DNA of 41,547 nucleotides from the NCBI GenBank assembly GCA_016744435.1, contig JADGEJ010000032.1, forward strand, positions 1-41,547, given 5' to 3'. Both the position numbers and the translations under genes were made by a program. Numbering within the stretch: the stretch's first letter is position 1; each line of letters starts with the position of its first letter. Below are positions 11,126 to 17,756 of this stretch, piece after piece. Under the pieces are notes generated by a model. The model made no database searches. It was not told the DNA's origin and was given only the letters and a program-made list of their open reading frames with translations. This DNA comes from Lentibacter sp. GTDB taxonomy: Bacteria > Pseudomonadota > Alphaproteobacteria > Rhodobacterales > Rhodobacteraceae.

Positions 11126-12685
11126 ATGGCACGAGCAGGTAGAAGCGGTGGACGCAGCGGAGGCCGCGCAGGTGCCGCCAAGCGGCGGGGCGCAACTGTC
11201 ATCGAGCAAATGCCTTGGCGCATTATCAAGAATGTCGACAAGCCTGTTGAGCCACTGAACGAGGAAGGCGTGCAGGCGATCCACGTAGGGGCCATGCGCA
11301 TTCTCGAAGAGATTGGCATCGAGATCCTCAACGCCGAAGCGCTTGAAGTGTTCCGCGAAATGGGCGCGACCATTGACGGCGACAATGTGCGCATGGGCCG
11401 TGAGATGGTCATGGAGCTGATCGGCAAAGCGCCGTCGGAGTGGACGCTGACGCCGCGCAACCCTGCGCGCCAGCTGCCTGTGGGGGGCAACAACCTGTTG
11501 TTTGGCAACGTCTCATCGCCGCCCTCGTATTGGACGATGGAAACAGGCCGCAAGATGACGGGCACGCGCGAAATGTGCAAAGACCTGATCAAGCTGAGCC
11601 AGTATTTTAACTGCATCCACTTTTGTGGCGGATACCCTGTTGAGCCGCAGGACATACACGCCTCTATTCGACACCTTGATGTGCTCTATGACAAGCTGAC
11701 GCTGACCGACAAAGTCGTGCACACCTACAGCTTGGGCAAGGAGCGAGTCGAAGACTGCATGGAAATGGTGCGGATCGCGGGCGGGCACACCGACGAAGAG
11801 TTTGAAGCCAGCCCGAAGATGTATACCAACATCAACTCGACATCGCCGCTTAAGCACGACGAGCCGATGCTGGACGGCTGGATGCGCATGGCGCGGCGCA
11901 ACCAAGGCCTGATTGTCACGCCGTTCACGCTTGCGGGGGCGATGGCGCCTGTGACGATGGCAGGCGCTGTGGCGCAGTCGATCGCCGAAGGGCTGATTGC
12001 GGTGGCGCTGGCGCAATACATTCGCCCCGGCGCGGCTTGCGCGATTGGCACCTTTACCAGCAATGTCGACATGAAATCAGGCGCACCCGCTTTTGGCACG
12101 CCTGAGTATATGCGCGCCACGCAGATGACTGGGCAGCTGGCGCGATTTTACGGGTTGCCGATGCGTGCGTCAGGGGTCTGCGCGGCCAATGTGCCGGACG
12201 GTCAGGCGATGTGGGAAACCTCCAACAGCCTCTGGGCGGCTGTACAGTCAGGTACCAACATGGTGTACCACGCAGCTGGCTGGCTTGAAGGCGGGCTGAT
12301 CGCCAGTCCTGAGAAGTTTGTCATGGATTGTGAGGTTTTGCAGCAAATTCAACGCTATATGGAGCCTGCGACCTTTGCGACGACACCTGATGACATCGCG
12401 ATTGATGCGATTGCCGAAGTAGGCCAGCACGGGCACTTCTTTGGGCTGCAACACACGCAAGACAGGTATACTACGGCGTTTTACCAGCCGTTCCTGAGCG
12501 ACTGGCGCAACTTTGAAGCCTGGGATGCTGCAGGGGCCGTCTGGACGCCGGAGCGCGCGCACCACCTTTACAAAGAGATCATCGCCAGCTTTGAAGCCCC
12601 GGCAATGGACCCTGCCATTCGCGAAGAGCTTGAAGCCTTTGTCGCACGCCGCAAGGCCGAAGGCGGAGCCCCCACCGACTTCTGA
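11126..12685 (+). CDS. MttB-family methyltransferase (non-pyrrolysine type)
   Basis: 519 residues of the trimethylamine methyltransferase MttB family. The N-terminal 25 residues are rich in Gly, Arg and Ala (RAGRSGGRSGGRAGAAKRRG) and probably disordered; the TIM-barrel follows from about residue 40. There is no in-frame stop, so the pyrrolysine of archaeal MttB is not used. Bacterial non-Pyl members include MtgB, which transfers a methyl group from glycine betaine to a corrinoid protein; the quaternary amine used here is unknown. No corrinoid-binding protein, reductive activator or second methyltransferase is beside it, so partners must be elsewhere. It follows xseA by 100 bp with its own upstream repeat. 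Confidence 0.85.
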   Translation: MARAGRSGGRSGGRAGAAKRRGATVIEQMPWRIIKNVDKPVEPLNEEGVQAIHVGAMRILEEIGIEILNAEALEVFREMGATIDGDNVRMGREMVMELIGKAPSEWTLTPRNPARQLPVGGNNLLFGNVSSPPSYWTMETGRKMTGTREMCKDLIKLSQYFNCIHFCGGYPVEPQDIHASIRHLDVLYDKLTLTDKVVHTYSLGKERVEDCMEMVRIAGGHTDEEFEASPKMYTNINSTSPLKHDEPMLDGWMRMARRNQGLIVTPFTLAGAMAPVTMAGAVAQSIAEGLIAVALAQYIRPGAACAIGTFTSNVDMKSGAPAFGTPEYMRATQMTGQLARFYGLPMRASGVCAANVPDGQAMWETSNSLWAAVQSGTNMVYHAAGWLEGGLIASPEKFVMDCEVLQQIQRYMEPATFATTPDDIAIDAIAEVGQHGHFFGLQHTQDRYTTAFYQPFLSDWRNFEAWDAAGAVWTPERAHHLYKEIIASFEAPAMDPAIREELEAFVARRKAEGGAPTDF

Positions 12686-12705
12686 GTCGCGCCGAGGGAC
12701 TGCGC

Positions 12706-12805
12706 CTTGGCTTCGCCAAGTCGCGGTGCCGGGTGGTCGGATCGCAGCAAAGCTGCGATCCGACCACCCGGCTGGGCCCAACGCATGACGGGGCATCTTC
12801 GATGC
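12706..12805. repeat. Cluster of three intergenic hairpins, one with 20-bp perfect arms
   Basis: Hairpin A is CTTGGC-TTC-GCCAAG (12706-12720). Hairpin B has arms CCGGGTGGTCGGATCGCAGC (12729-12748) and its exact reverse complement (12752-12771) around an AAA loop. Hairpin C is GCATC-TTC-GATGC (12793-12805). No T tract follows B on either strand, so it is not a standard intrinsic terminator. From experience such GGATCGCAGC-type palindromes recur between genes in Rhodobacterales; this suggests a dispersed palindromic element. It lies after the MttB-like gene and before the DUF4153 gene. Confidence 0.7.
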
Positions 12806-12948
12806 ACCGGAATGGGGCGGGAGACCCTTAGGAGCCCCCTTTGGTCTGCTCAGAGGAAATTGAGTGAGAACTCCTCACCTAGTGTACTAAAACTGCGTGA
12901 AACTCGCGTTAGCAAGGCGTATCATAGGCTGAAACGAGGGAGTCGCTA

Positions 12949-14670
12949 ATGATGAAAGACCGCTTGGAGCTTGCTGCCATCGGAGGGGTCGCCGGCCTCT
13001 CGCTATGGGCGTTTTTTGAATTTCTCCCTCAGATTGTCGGCAAAGGCTGGGGGTTGCACGTCGCCCTGACGATGGTGCTGGCGTTTTTCGTCTCGCTATT
13101 GGCACTGGTTGGCCCCGAAAAGCCTCAGCGTGCGCTGCTGCCCTCGGCGCTTTTGGCCTGTCTGGCTGGCGCGCTTGCCTTAATGGGCATTCTTCGGTTT
13201 GCGACACCTCGTGACTACTATGCAGTCGGGCACACCATTGTGGCCATGGGTGCGATGATGTTTATCGCTATCCCTTTTGCCGCGGCCGAGCTTGAGGAAA
13301 GAGGCGGTTGGCGTCAATATGCGCGGCTGTTTGATGCCGCATGGGGCATTTTCATCCGCTATTTTGCTGGTTGGCTGTTTGCCGGGCTTATTTTGCTGGT
13401 GCTGTATCTGTCTGATGAGTTGCTCAAGCTCGTAGGGATCCGCATCATCGACGACATCCTAAAAATCGACGTTGTCCGCTATACGCTGATCGGGGCTGTA
13501 TTCGGGCTTGGCGTGGCAACAGTACATGAGCTGCGCGATTATGTTTCGCCAGTTCTCGTGCACCGTTTGTTGCGCATGTTGGTGCCTTTGGTTCTGGTTG
13601 TTGTTGTTATCTTCCTAGGTGCGTTGCCGTTTCGTGGGCTGTCTGACTTGTTTGGCGACCTCTCAACAGCTGCCGTTCTGATGAGCGTTGCCTTCGGCGC
13701 AATCACCCTTATCACTACTTTGATTGACCGTGATAACGAGAATGCCTCCGATGTGCGGCTGATGGTTGTGTCGGCGAGAGCTTTGGCGGTTTTGTTGCCC
13801 TGCCTTGTGGCATTGGCGCTTTATGCTGTTTGGTTGCGGGTGGCGACTTACGGCTGGACACCCGAGCGGGTGATCGCGGCGTATGTTATGGTGTTTTTGG
13901 TCGGGTACTCAGTATCTTACGCCGTATCAGCATTGCGTGGCGCCGGCTGGATGGGGAAGCTGAGGCAGTGCAATTTAGGCCTAGCTATCGCGGTTTGTGT
14001 CGGTGCGGGGCTATGGTTGACACCTTTGATCAACGCTGAGGGCTGGTCTGCCAAGAGCCAGTTGGCGCGCTATCTTAACGGAAAAGCAGAAGCAGAAGGT
14101 CTACCGCTCTTCGAGATGGCGCATGACTGGGGCTTGCCTGGTTTGCGTGCTCTAGAGACTTTGGAAGATGCGGATGATGTAGCACTTGGTGCGATGATCA
14201 CAAGGGCAAAGAGTGCCAATTCAAGCTGGGCTTACACCCGTGATCTCGACACCAACGAAATAGTTGATTTGAAGGCAGATTTAGTCGCGCGCATCGCTGT
14301 GCGCCCAGAAGGATCCAGTGTTGTGCCACTGTTGAAAGACATGCCAATACGTGCGCTGCGCCAAGTTGAAAAGCTCTGCAAGGCAGGTACGCAACAGACA
14401 TGTGTTGTCGTGTTCCTGCCGGCGGGCACACAGGGCTACTCTGCCACGGAAGCTGTGTTGGTAAGCCGCGAAAGATCCGCTGTCTGGGCGGTTGCACGTG
14501 AAGGTACAGAAACTAACCTTCGATCCATATCCGCCTATGGGCCAGACAAGCGCACGACGTCACACCCGCGCGATATGTTTGACAGCGTGATGAGTGGTAA
14601 GTTTACATTTGAATCCGTCTCTCGCTCGTATTTGAAAGTCGGCGATACCGTGCTTGTTCCATACAATTGA
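12949..14670 (+). CDS. DUF4153 multi-pass membrane protein
   Basis: 573 residues. About the first 360 residues contain some ten hydrophobic spans typical of DUF4153 proteins, for example GLSLWAFFEFLPQIV, VALTMVLAFFVSLLALV, YTLIGAVFGLGVATV and VLVVVVIFLGALPF. The last 200 residues are mostly hydrophilic, and WGLPGLRALETLEDADD is close to a segment often seen in the family. The function is unknown; it is probably in the inner membrane. The ribosome site is GAGGGAG. Two adjacent ATGs at the start leave the first Met uncertain by one codon. The next gene begins 62 bp downstream and may be co-transcribed. Confidence 0.82.
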   Translation: MMKDRLELAAIGGVAGLSLWAFFEFLPQIVGKGWGLHVALTMVLAFFVSLLALVGPEKPQRALLPSALLACLAGALALMGILRFATPRDYYAVGHTIVAMGAMMFIAIPFAAAELEERGGWRQYARLFDAAWGIFIRYFAGWLFAGLILLVLYLSDELLKLVGIRIIDDILKIDVVRYTLIGAVFGLGVATVHELRDYVSPVLVHRLLRMLVPLVLVVVVIFLGALPFRGLSDLFGDLSTAAVLMSVAFGAITLITTLIDRDNENASDVRLMVVSARALAVLLPCLVALALYAVWLRVATYGWTPERVIAAYVMVFLVGYSVSYAVSALRGAGWMGKLRQCNLGLAIAVCVGAGLWLTPLINAEGWSAKSQLARYLNGKAEAEGLPLFEMAHDWGLPGLRALETLEDADDVALGAMITRAKSANSSWAYTRDLDTNEIVDLKADLVARIAVRPEGSSVVPLLKDMPIRALRQVEKLCKAGTQQTCVVVFLPAGTQGYSATEAVLVSRERSAVWAVAREGTETNLRSISAYGPDKRTTSHPRDMFDSVMSGKFTFESVSRSYLKVGDTVLVPYN

Positions 14671-14732
14671 AGATGTTGACTTCATCTTAACCTCGGCGGT
14701 GCATCCTCTCGTGAAAATAGAGGAAACGGACA

Positions 14733-15320
14733 ATGCACGGGTTGATTAACAGAACCATTCAGAGCTTTGCACGCGATACTTACGGCGAAGCAGCCTGGGT
14801 GGGCGCGATGGAGAATGCGGGGCTGGGGTTTGCCGAGTTTGAGGCCATGCTGATCTATGAAGACGAAACTTCGCTCAGTGTCTTAAGGGCTTTGTCAGAA
14901 ATCGTTGGTGCACCGCAAGATACGATACTGGAAGACATTGGGACCTATCTGGTGAGCAACCAAAACTCAGAAACCGTGCGCCGCCTGCTGCGGTTCGGGG
15001 GGGTGGATTTCGTGGAATTTTTGCATTCATTGGATGATTTGCCAGACCGTTCGCGCCTTGCTGTCGCGGATCTGACATTGCCGAAACTCGAGTTGCGAGA
15101 GCATGCCATTGATCGCTTTAGCCTAACAGTTGAAGGGCCGATTACTGGCTTTGGGGCTGTTTTGATCGGCGTACTCAGGGCCATGGCTGATGACTATGGT
15201 GTTTTGGTCTTTTTGGAACATCTGCCCAACCGATCCGGAGCTGAAATAATTGAGATTCATGTCATCGAAGCGGCCTTTGCAGTTGGACGCGGGTTTGAGC
15301 TAGCGGCGCGCGCAGGATGA
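14733..15320 (+). CDS. H-NOX-like (heme NO-binding domain) protein lacking the heme histidine
   Basis: 195 residues aligned by eye to H-NOX domains: MHGLINRTIQSFARDTYGEAAW at the start, then YLVSNQNSETVRRLLRFGGVDFVEFLHSLDDL, then the C-terminal FGAVLIGVLRAMADDYG. In functional H-NOX proteins the proximal heme ligand is His in the LDxLH segment (His105 of soluble guanylate cyclase beta-1). Here the segment reads LDDLP with Pro104; the nearest His is H98. The YxSxR heme-propionate motif also appears lost (TVEGPI at about 132-137). Canonical heme and NO binding therefore look unlikely. Its stop overlaps the start of the GGDEF gene, so the two act together. A shifted alignment is possible but seems unlikely. 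Confidence 0.8.
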   Translation: MHGLINRTIQSFARDTYGEAAWVGAMENAGLGFAEFEAMLIYEDETSLSVLRALSEIVGAPQDTILEDIGTYLVSNQNSETVRRLLRFGGVDFVEFLHSLDDLPDRSRLAVADLTLPKLELREHAIDRFSLTVEGPITGFGAVLIGVLRAMADDYGVLVFLEHLPNRSGAEIIEIHVIEAAFAVGRGFELAARAG

Positions 15321-16414
15321 GTGCTTTGGAGGGTCATGTGCAGGAGGAGGATCGGTTGGAGGAGTTGGCGCAACTGCTTGATACGTTCTGCCCGATGCAT
15401 CTGCGTCTCAACGCTACGGGGCATATCTGCCATGTCGGGCCAACGATGCAGAAATTGAGGCCTGACAGCCCGATCATCGGGCAACGGTTCATGGAACTGT
15501 TTGAGTTGCGGCGTCCACGTGCCGTAGGCTCGATGGAAGAACTGCTCAAGAGTGCCGGTTTAAAGCTTCAAGTGAGATTTCGAGAGCCGCCACAGACGGC
15601 TTTGAGCGGCGTACTCGCGCCACTGCCTGACGGTGAAGGCGCGATCGTGAACCTATCCTTCGGGATATCACTGATGGATGCCATGCGTGACTATACACTG
15701 ACCAGCACTGATTTTGCGGCTACAGATTTGGCTGTAGAAATGCTCTATCTCGTGGAAGCGAAGTCGGCCGCCATGGAAGCGTCACGAAAACTTAATTTGC
15801 GGCTTCAAGGCGCGATGATTGCAGCAGAAGAGCAGGCCTATACGGACACATTGACCGGACTGAAAAATCGCCGGGCGATGGACCATGTTTTGGATCGGGC
15901 GATTTTGACGCAAACCAATTTCGCATTGATGCACATCGATTTGGATTTTTTCAAAGCCGTGAACGACACTTTGGGCCACGCGGCGGGGGATCACGTGCTA
16001 CAAAAGGTTGCGCGTATCATGGTCGATGCGACGCGCGCTGAAGACACGGTAGCACGCGTTGGCGGGGATGAGTTTGTTATCATTTTTGACGGGCTAACTG
16101 ACCGGGGCCAGTTGGTTAAAGTCGCGGAACGCATCATCTCTGAACTTGAAAAGCCAATGCCATTTGGCGACCATGTCTGCAATATTTCGGCGAGTTGTGG
16201 CACGGTCCTGTCGGAAAACTATGAAACCGCGGATGCAGCAGAAATGCTCGCCGACGCCGACCTGGCGTTATATGCTTCAAAACACGCAGGGCGTGCTCGC
16301 CATAGTTTTTTCACCAAGAAGATGCGGGAAGCAGGTATCGGGCCCGCCCCAGCCGTGGAGCCGCAAGCTGCAAATGGAGCACCGGCGGAGAGAGTAGAGC
16401 GGCGCTCTCGCTGA
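15317..16414 (+). CDS. H-NOX-associated diguanylate cyclase (HNOBA-like + GGDEF)
   Basis: 365 residues. Residues about 20-145 resemble the H-NOX-associated (HNOBA) PAS-like domain of guanylate cyclases (CPMHLRLNATGHICHVGP, then FMELFELRRPR). A short helix (about 145-172) acts as signalling linker. The GGDEF domain starts DTLTGLKNRRA (about 177-187), with metal residue D208 in HIDLDFFK, the active site RVGGDEF (GGDEF at 249-253) and an inhibitory I-site RAED at 240-243, five residues upstream. It should make cyclic di-GMP from GTP and be product-inhibited. No EAL domain is present. The ATGA overlap with the H-NOX-like gene indicates coupled synthesis and probably a complex. The last 25 residues are Ala/Arg-rich and unconserved. 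Confidence 0.9.
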   Translation: MSALEGHVQEEDRLEELAQLLDTFCPMHLRLNATGHICHVGPTMQKLRPDSPIIGQRFMELFELRRPRAVGSMEELLKSAGLKLQVRFREPPQTALSGVLAPLPDGEGAIVNLSFGISLMDAMRDYTLTSTDFAATDLAVEMLYLVEAKSAAMEASRKLNLRLQGAMIAAEEQAYTDTLTGLKNRRAMDHVLDRAILTQTNFALMHIDLDFFKAVNDTLGHAAGDHVLQKVARIMVDATRAEDTVARVGGDEFVIIFDGLTDRGQLVKVAERIISELEKPMPFGDHVCNISASCGTVLSENYETADAAEMLADADLALYASKHAGRARHSFFTKKMREAGIGPAPAVEPQAANGAPAERVERRSR

Positions 16415-16462: not shown

Positions 16463-17756
16463 TTACAAGGCTTCCAGCACGGCATCCAACGTATCAAACA
16501 GGAGGTCAACGTGGGCCTCGTCAAACAGCAATGGCGGGCGAATTTTCAGCGTGTTCTTGTGCCGCCCGAGGCTTGAAAGCAAAATGCCGCGGGCGCGCTA
16601 TTTCATTGACAACCTTGGCACAAAGCGCGCTCGCAGGCGCCTCGGTGTCGCGCGATGTCACCAGCTCGGCGCCAAAAATCATACCACCGCCGCGAATGTC
16701 GCTGATACAGGCATGCTTTTCGCCTAGCTTCACCAACTTATCCTGACAGTAAGCGCCAACGCGTGTGGCCTGGGCTTGCAGGCCTTCGGCTTCCATTTCT
16801 TCCAGCAGGGCCATGGCCGCCGCGCATGACACGGGGTTGCCTCCGAAGGTGTTGAAATAGCGAAAGGCCTCGCGAAACCGCGTCATGATGGCTTGGGTTG
16901 TCACCACGCCGCCCACAGGGTGGCCATTGGCCATCGGTTTGCCCATGGTCACAATGTCAGGCACCACGTCCTGCCGCTGGTGGCCCCAAAAGTGCGTTCC
17001 AAGGCGGCCAAAGCCGGGCTACACTTCGTCGGCGATAAGCAGGCCACCCGCCTCACGCACCACGCGCGCGGCTTCGGCCAGCCACCCCGCAGGCAAGTTG
17101 GGGAAGCCCTCGTTAACAAAGAACGGGCAGATGATCAGCGCCGCAAAGCCGTGCCCGGCCTCTTCCAAGTCGGCAATCGCCGCGCGCAGGTGGTTGGCAA
17201 ACGCTGAGCCGCCTTCGTCGGGGTTGCGGTAGCTGTCAGGCGCGGGGATGTGGCGAAAGAACTGCTCAAGCCCGAAGCCAACTTGCGGCACATTGCTGCG
17301 CGACAGCTGGCTGACAAGCGCCGTGTCGCCATAGTAGGTCGCGTCGGTGGCGATGATCCCGCGCTTGCCTGTCACGCCTTCGGCCATGCGCAGGGCAATG
17401 TCGTTGGCTTCCGAGCCGGTGCACGTCAGGATCGCGGAGCTGAGGCTACCGTCCATCGTCGCCGTGAGGCGCTCGGCATAGTCAAGAATGCCCTCGAGCA
17501 GGTAGCGCGTATGGGTGTTAAGCGTGCTGGCCTGACGGGTGATCGCCACAACAGCGCGCGGGTTGCAATGGCCAACGTGGGGCACGTTGTTGTAGCAATC
17601 CAAGTAGCGCTCCCCGTCAGTGTCCCAAAGCCAGACGCCCTCACCGCGCACGATATGCACAGGCGCGTCGTAGAAAAGCGATATGTTGGGACCAAGCAGG
17701 CGCTTGCGGCGGGCGAGCATGTCTTCCATGGCGGGAGCCTTATCTGGTGGGTGCAT
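16463..17756 (-). pseudogene. Class-III aminotransferase pseudogene (amber stop and +1 frameshift)
   Basis: The gene would encode a ~430-residue PLP-dependent class-III aminotransferase resembling ethanolamine-phosphate phospho-lyase relatives: MEDMLARRKRLLGPNISLF, then TCTGSEANDIALR, then LLIADEV, then MGKPMANGHPVGG with the PLP lysine. It is broken twice. After LIADEV, codon 246 is TAG (complement of 17019-17021) where relatives have Gln, and the frame continues in phase with PGFGRLGTHFWGH. Near the 3' end one extra base (around 16599) shifts the frame after VVNE; the other frame restores RGILLSSLGRHKNTLKIRPP and runs to a proper stop at 16463. Two independent lesions make loss of function likely. 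It is divergent from the monooxygenase operon and convergent with the GGDEF gene. Confidence 0.9.

Follow-up and report, generated by a model that had tools for sequence, protein, structure and literature searches.

Based on a computational analysis of a 41,547-nt stretch of Lentibacter sp. DNA (hereafter the window), we propose that the H-NOX protein encoded there needs no heme and serves as a regulatory subunit of the neighbouring diguanylate cyclase, binding it and controlling its activity, probably by inhibition, and that the NO switch is gone; we put the probability of this reading at about 60%. The protein has kept the H-NOX fold and lost both heme-holding motifs, its gene overlaps that of the cyclase, the two are inherited together, purifying selection acts on hnox and a CtrA-like site lies upstream of it.

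The His-less branch to which the gene belongs is not new: it has been published as Group 5 H-NOX. Kumar and Spiro (2017) had already remarked that the His is absent in Paracoccus denitrificans and Rhodobacter sphaeroides (PMC5588039), and Lee-Lopez and Yukl (2022), starting from the P. denitrificans sequence, defined a very large fifth cluster of H-NOX proteins, ‘Group 5’, in which the proximal His is reported in <10% of members, with mostly Pro instead (PMC8738867). With both accounts in print, the window gene is a member of a known group. The same review asks by what means these proteins could sense NO or any other signal (PMC8738867). What is added here is the linkage to the GGDEF gene, the co-occurrence of the pair, the selection, the CtrA-like site upstream and the His status of the D. 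shibae protein.

An H-NOX fold without heme-holding residues

14733..15320, forward strand: hnox, encoding a 195-aa protein of the His-less class (Group 5) with an HNOB/H-NOX fold (ORF, Pfam, phmmer, AlphaFold, Foldseek)
15042..15044, forward strand: Pro104, codon CCA, aligned with the proximal heme His (Nostoc H105; phmmer, MAFFT)
15081..15083, forward strand: Pro117, equivalent to Nostoc P118, the proximal Pro that H-NOX proteins conserve; the same residue in 195/195 class rows
15126..15143, forward strand: TVEGPI in place of YxSxR (Y134/S136/R138 to V133/G135/I137; phmmer, MAFFT)

The hnox reading frame is intact, with an ATG start, and its product gives the single match to the Pfam HNOB profile in the window's own genome, over residues 2–156 (E = 2.1e-21; 77 bits against a cut-off of 25.5). 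By sequence the closest solved structures are the Nostoc Alr2278 H-NOX entries (best E = 5.8e-15, phmmer against PDB chains). An AlphaFold model based on 20 aligned relatives has a mean pLDDT of 85.5 and a pTM of 0.83, and its top Foldseek match is again Nostoc H-NOX (E = 5e-13; TM 0.80–0.81 by query length). The fold-level similarity to H-NOX claimed in the original prediction is therefore borne out, by an HNOB score of 77 bits and a model TM of 0.81 to Nostoc H-NOX. The human soluble guanylate cyclase beta subunit ranks 15th among the Foldseek matches (TM 0.81) and an alpha-subunit chain, 8hbe_A, is matched at TM 0.51. Also listed is 2kil, the H103G mutant of Shewanella H-NOX, a structure that we take to be a mimic of the signalling state.

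Both phmmer and MAFFT place P104 opposite H105 of Nostoc Alr2278, the helix alignment being gap-free in phmmer, and V133, G135 and I137 opposite Y134, S136 and R138, so that all three YxSxR anchors are absent from the window protein. The two motif losses that had been read from the sequence, Pro at the proximal-His position and TVEGPI in the YxSxR segment, hold in these alignments to Alr2278. Histidines are found at positions 2, 98, 124, 163 and 176, and no Cys occurs anywhere in the 195-aa protein. A redox site of three Cys binding zinc was rejected because the window H-NOX has no Cys.

A His-less class in Rhodobacteraceae

HNOB matches were found in 181 of 248 genomes sampled from the family. 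Of 230 loci collected, 12 duplicates were dropped, and the addition of Alr2278 and of three further copies, taken from large plasmid records, gave 222 rows. The trees are quick ones with weak inner branches; in the 222-row tree, built with the proximal-site column excluded, a clade of 195 rows separates with an SH-aLRT of 100 and holds both the window H-NOX and that of P. denitrificans. At the proximal site these class rows have Pro in 143, Ser in 15, His in 13, Gln in 6 and Arg in 5; the remainder, taken from the whole-set counts, are Asn (4), Ala (4), Thr (2), Asp (1), Lys (1) and Gly (1). Aligned to known H-NOX proteins and Rhodobacterales homologues, as had been proposed at the outset, Pro is thus the commonest state of the clade, and for this reason Pro104 is more than chance. 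Our census, with 13/195 His and 143/195 Pro, agrees with the Group 5 review.

A complete YxSxR occurs in 0/192 class rows and its Tyr is absent from all 13 rows with a proximal His; the class members sampled here have lost the motif whether or not they keep the His. The lost Tyr column (window V133) is Cys in 122/195 class rows, which may be a reactive or ligand residue in the majority, not in the window. The canonical group of 26 rows, Alr2278 included, has the proximal His in 25/26 and the Y, S and R of YxSxR in 26/26; one canonical-type H-NOX (L026, on contig C4 of genome G086) has Gln for the proximal His and YxSxR intact. A single row, L113, fits neither the canonical group nor the His-less class and was excluded from both.

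A wider search with profile A1 covered 385 genomes of the taxonomic class, at most eight candidates per genome being scored, and matched 11 genomes: five belong to the window's family, one being its own genome, and six to other families. The six were rejected as members of the His-less class since they score higher with the canonical profile. Among the five, one locus not collected before (L239) is favoured slightly by the profile of the His-less class, yet carries the canonical motifs MH and YYSER.

Could heme still be held by other means? One alternative is that heme is bound through the hydrophobic pocket or another side chain, and that NO or another gas is sensed in an unusual coordination; we regard this as unlikely. 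Most positions named as ligand contacts in the Nostoc pocket remain hydrophobic across the class (exceptions include the T78 position, Pro in 152/195 class rows, and the V108 position, Ser in the window), which would leave room for heme or some other flat ligand. Candidate side chains exist: residue 2 is His in 171/195 class rows, the H98 column is His in 132/195 and Cys is common in the former Tyr column. The mild enrichment of the gene pair in genomes with nirS or nirK, given below, points the same way. However, no well-placed substitute was found: the window has Val in the Cys column, no Cys elsewhere and none of the three YxSxR anchors. The well-conserved H2 may still be a candidate.

H98, which the original prediction had offered as another ligand, finds no support as one. 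Its column is His about equally often in rows without (125/182) and with (7/13) the proximal His, and H98 aligns to Nostoc E99; the passage on Nostoc pocket residues that touch heme-mimicking drugs on that helix names F97, L101, L104 and V108, not E99 (PMC6225106). By helix spacing H98 should face away from the pocket. The independence from the proximal His and the probable non-pocket position led us to reject it.

The partner cyclase

15317..16414, forward strand: partner diguanylate cyclase (365 aa), whose gene overlaps hnox by 4 nt
15389..15694, forward strand: PAS-like/HNOBA-related N-terminal domain, cyclase residues 25–126 (Pfam HNOBA, AlphaFold secondary structure)
15836..16297, forward strand: GGDEF domain with GGDEF and RxxD motifs intact (Pfam, motif check)

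The ATG of the cyclase, at 15317, overlaps the hnox stop by 4 nt. Its product matches GGDEF strongly (E = 5.6e-42) and HNOBA weakly (26.7 bits, cut-off 23.4, residues 20–78); HNOBA is matched in 15 of 18 aligned cyclases, the window's included. The AlphaFold model (mean pLDDT 88.4, pTM 0.58) comprises a mixed helix-strand domain, a long helix (138–174) and the GGDEF domain. From this model and its PAS-GGDEF Foldseek matches, our reading is that the N-terminal domain is PAS-like. The best match is a PAS-GGDEF-EAL protein (E = 3e-21) at an rmsd of 24.8, a value showing that each domain aligns separately. The 50 Foldseek matches listed include no chain of soluble guanylate cyclase, so homology of the cyclase N-terminus to the PAS domain of that enzyme rests on the weak HNOBA match. 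With three GGDEF matches in the window's genome, this cyclase is one of few.

The pairing holds throughout the class. A GGDEF gene lies downstream of hnox in 189/189 class loci with ≥900 nt of downstream sequence (192 examined), as against 1/25 canonical loci of the family, and RxxD is present in 185/189 of the cyclases. In 188/189 class loci an in-frame ATG or GTG lies no more than about 60 nt from the hnox stop, and 135/189, the window among them, have the 4-nt ATGA overlap. Across the 248 genomes, 172 have both HNOB and the cyclase N-terminus, nine HNOB alone, two the cyclase alone and 65 neither; in seven of the nine HNOB-only genomes the fetched copies are canonical or L113. The fetched class copies are the best-scoring ones, and at least 124 genomes have a class copy, compared with a cyclase in 174.

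Selection and the drifting proximal site

Across 30 close class pairs, hnox dN/dS is 0.013–0.244 in the 26 with estimable dS, several of which have dS >1; dS is saturated in the other four, the window's own pair included (pS 0.82, pN 0.12). Entropy, invariant columns and dN/dS were computed on 192 class rows, over which eight columns are invariant. P117 is one of them, while among the 195 window positions P104 ranks 97th by entropy, G135 179th and I137 183rd. In 25 canonical rows of the family (157 positions) H105 ranks 20th, Y134 eighth and S136 ninth. The former heme sites are thus middling to highly variable in the class: hnox is under purifying selection while its heme-anchoring sites drift. 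Near-invariant instead are R83, R84, R87, R106, R149, R186, W22 and an ADDYG stretch, which could form the contact surface with the cyclase or bind an anionic partner. Each of the six Arg positions is Arg in 171–182 of the 182 class rows that lack the proximal His; among the 26 canonical rows, Arg occurs at R83, R84, R87 and R186 in none and at R106 and R149 in one each.

The whole reading frame, the 4-nt overlap with the GGDEF gene and the low dN/dS in the class confirm the earlier view that the gene is intact, coupled to a cyclase and selected. They also bear on the idea that the H-NOX is decaying or non-functional and is kept only through translational coupling to the cyclase. The frequent ATGA overlap, seen in the window too, speaks for such coupling, but the selection data, namely the low dN/dS and the invariant columns, make decay very improbable, and both the confident AlphaFold model and the phenotype of P. 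denitrificans hnoX mutants, which are reported to form less biofilm (PMC5588039, PMC12582929), argue against it as well.

How have the 13 His-bearing members come about? Parsimony requires 10 changes on the class tree and 11 on the full tree; for the class alone, nine changes suffice if the root lacked His and 11 if it had His, the inner branches being weak. A Pro codon (CCY) lies a single base step from His (CAY) and likewise from the Ser (TCN), Thr, Ala, Gln and Arg codons seen; the Asn, Asp, Lys and Gly codons and one AGC are further away. These observations, together with the lack of a link between His and nirS/nirK (p = 0.22, below), are in keeping with a relaxed site at which His comes and goes by single base steps, so that the 13 His members need not use it and the NO effect in D. 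shibae may rest elsewhere. This is compatible with our preferred reading; we hold it to be doubtful, with a sizeable minority chance of being correct. Against it, the D. shibae sensor is listed as heme-type in a review (PMC8846402), and His-bearing rows share other residues: Ser8 in 12/13 versus 42/182 other class rows (the best of 768 residue tests, raw p = 8e-7) and Trp or His at 135 in 10/13 versus 13/182. Only three tree-independent pairs lie on well-supported branches. When six traits are paired on the whole best tree, the median sign p is 0.03 for L82, 0.06 for a basic residue at 136, 0.25 for S8, 0.375 for a wider aromatic set at 135 and 1 for the remaining two; as the S8 and aromatic 135 pairings are not significant, the covarying residues are only a hint.

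Upstream DNA and the question of NO

14676..14691, forward strand: putative CtrA-like site, TTGA-N7-TTAAC, 8/9 consensus bases (motif scan)

The site is centred about 49 nt 5′ of the hnox ATG; the CtrA motif is given as TTAAC-N5-GTTAAC, and Fnr-type regulators share its half-site (PMC7232146). When sites with ≥7/9 consensus bases and a centre 40–65 nt upstream are scored, 129/191 class loci have one versus 5.9 in shuffled sequence, with kinship ignored. For the named loci, the 80 most similar to the window out of 100 found, of which 78 were used in counts, the figure is 56/78 versus 11/221 other genes of those loci, again ignoring kinship. The site is not special to His-less copies: it occurs in 8/13 His-bearing loci, 121/178 other class loci and 12/25 canonical loci. 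A scan for a sigma-70-type promoter found nothing.

The upstream site fits two reports of CtrA control and may be bound by CtrA in the window. D. shibae hnox is reported to be regulated by the CtrA phosphorelay (PMC7232146), and so are the transcripts of rcc02629 (PMC9143464), which adjoins the R. capsulatus hnox homologue (PMC7232146). The D. shibae hnox upstream region has a 6/9 match only, and the passage on predicted CtrA sites in that species names dgc2, not hnox (PMC6473078).

Upstream of hnox on the forward strand (11126–14670) lie genes for an MttB-family methyltransferase and a DUF4153 protein, whose relatives are upstream on the same strand in 45/78 and 34/78 named loci, respectively. 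A perfect 21-nt inverted repeat with 3 nt between its arms (12728–12772), shortly past the MttB-family gene, is possibly a terminator. On the reverse strand, at 16521–17756, two ORFs (profile positions 10–232 and 251–361) share what would be one class-III aminotransferase gene, either broken or affected by a sequencing error.

Is NO nevertheless connected to the pair? The nirS set comprises 41 genomes (E <1e-90; one genome, whose matches were partial with one stop, was excluded) and the nirK set 31 (over the family cut-off). With kinship not corrected, nirS or nirK is present in 57/172 genomes with the HNOB–cyclase pair versus 14/76 without it (p = 0.022), which hints at a link with NO. The window's own genome has no match to either family; this weakens the case for a home-made NO signal, not for NO from neighbours. 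A tie between retention of the proximal His and nitrite reduction was not shown (6/12 versus 36/112 with nirS or nirK, p = 0.22).

A model for cyclase control without heme

What might a heme-less H-NOX do for its cyclase? In the model that we favour, the overlapping genes, preceded by a CtrA-type site, make an H-NOX-fold protein and a dedicated HNOBA/PAS-GGDEF diguanylate cyclase that would associate with each other. The proximal His and YxSxR have been lost, while the fold, the hydrophobic core, the proximal Pro and the class-specific Arg and other residues remain conserved. NO acts on His-type H-NOX proteins by displacing the proximal His, with a movement of helix F (PMC7108781); with no His–heme bond, the window protein cannot be switched in this manner. 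Two options may then be envisaged. Pro may leave helix F in a released, NO-bound-like position, expression of the operon being the input, or the old heme pocket may bind another ligand. They correspond to the suggestions of the original prediction that the protein is a constitutive partner of the cyclase or senses something other than NO, which on the sequence evidence appear to be the leading readings. That the H-NOX acts as a brake is suggested by analogy with the NO-bound H-NOX of D. shibae and by the proposal made for P. denitrificans (PMC5588039).

Tentatively, and at somewhat less than even odds, we extend the model to the family: a heme-free H-NOX/cyclase module whose pocket is reused for a different small molecule or which is a fixed brake, with cell state delivered by CtrA as its input rather than NO, the older NO switch being kept in a few His-bearing members such as D. 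shibae. Proteins of the class carry the name ‘heme NO-binding protein’, and the member reported to respond to NO keeps the His that most lack. If the majority is heme-free, c-di-GMP control in much of Rhodobacterales has been wrongly filed under NO sensing. The scattered His-bearing members, which sit in the same operon, offer a ready-made comparison for the effect of His or Pro on NO control.

Comparison with known systems

The nearest relatives are the P. denitrificans-type proteins of Group 5, with which the window H-NOX shares Pro at the proximal site, a GGDEF neighbour and clustering apart from His-type H-NOX; nothing essential differs. The P. denitrificans copy in the window's clade reads ELPGR, with Pro at the proximal site in the strain sampled, and its lack of the proximal His is on record (PMC5588039). 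Its pathway is described by the authors as NO-responsive (PMC5588039, PMC8738867); in the literature searched, in the parts available, we found no biochemistry of a Pro-type H-NOX. The Group 5 review reports no conserved Cys (PMC8738867), whereas in our rows, though not in the window's, Cys predominates in the lost Tyr column.

In D. shibae, H-NOX is reported to inhibit Dgc1 when NO-bound (PMC7232146, PMC8846402; original Bedrunka 2018). The single HNOB match of that genome falls in the His-less class, shares the hnox–cyclase layout of the window and likewise lacks the Tyr and Ser of YxSxR. It reads DDLHDR, however, and so keeps the proximal His, as well as the Arg of YxSxR, where the window has Pro and Ile. 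As the NO-responsive protein is one of the few with His, what was seen in D. shibae need not apply to the majority of members, which have Pro. A precedent for H-NOX signalling without heme is the redox H-NOX of V. cholerae, which is described as having a Cys-ligated zinc site and as keeping the heme His (PMC7108781); the window H-NOX has no Cys.

The canonical bacterial H-NOX proteins (Nostoc Alr2278, Shewanella, Vibrio) share with the window protein the fold, the proximal Pro and membership of the HNOB family, but they have the proximal His and YxSxR, of which the window has neither, and 24/25 canonical loci of the family are without a GGDEF neighbour. The alpha subunit of soluble guanylate cyclase has a heme-less H-NOX domain that has been kept as part of a cyclase. 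There the H-NOX domain is fused to a guanylate cyclase in animals, whereas in the window it is a separate protein beside a diguanylate cyclase.
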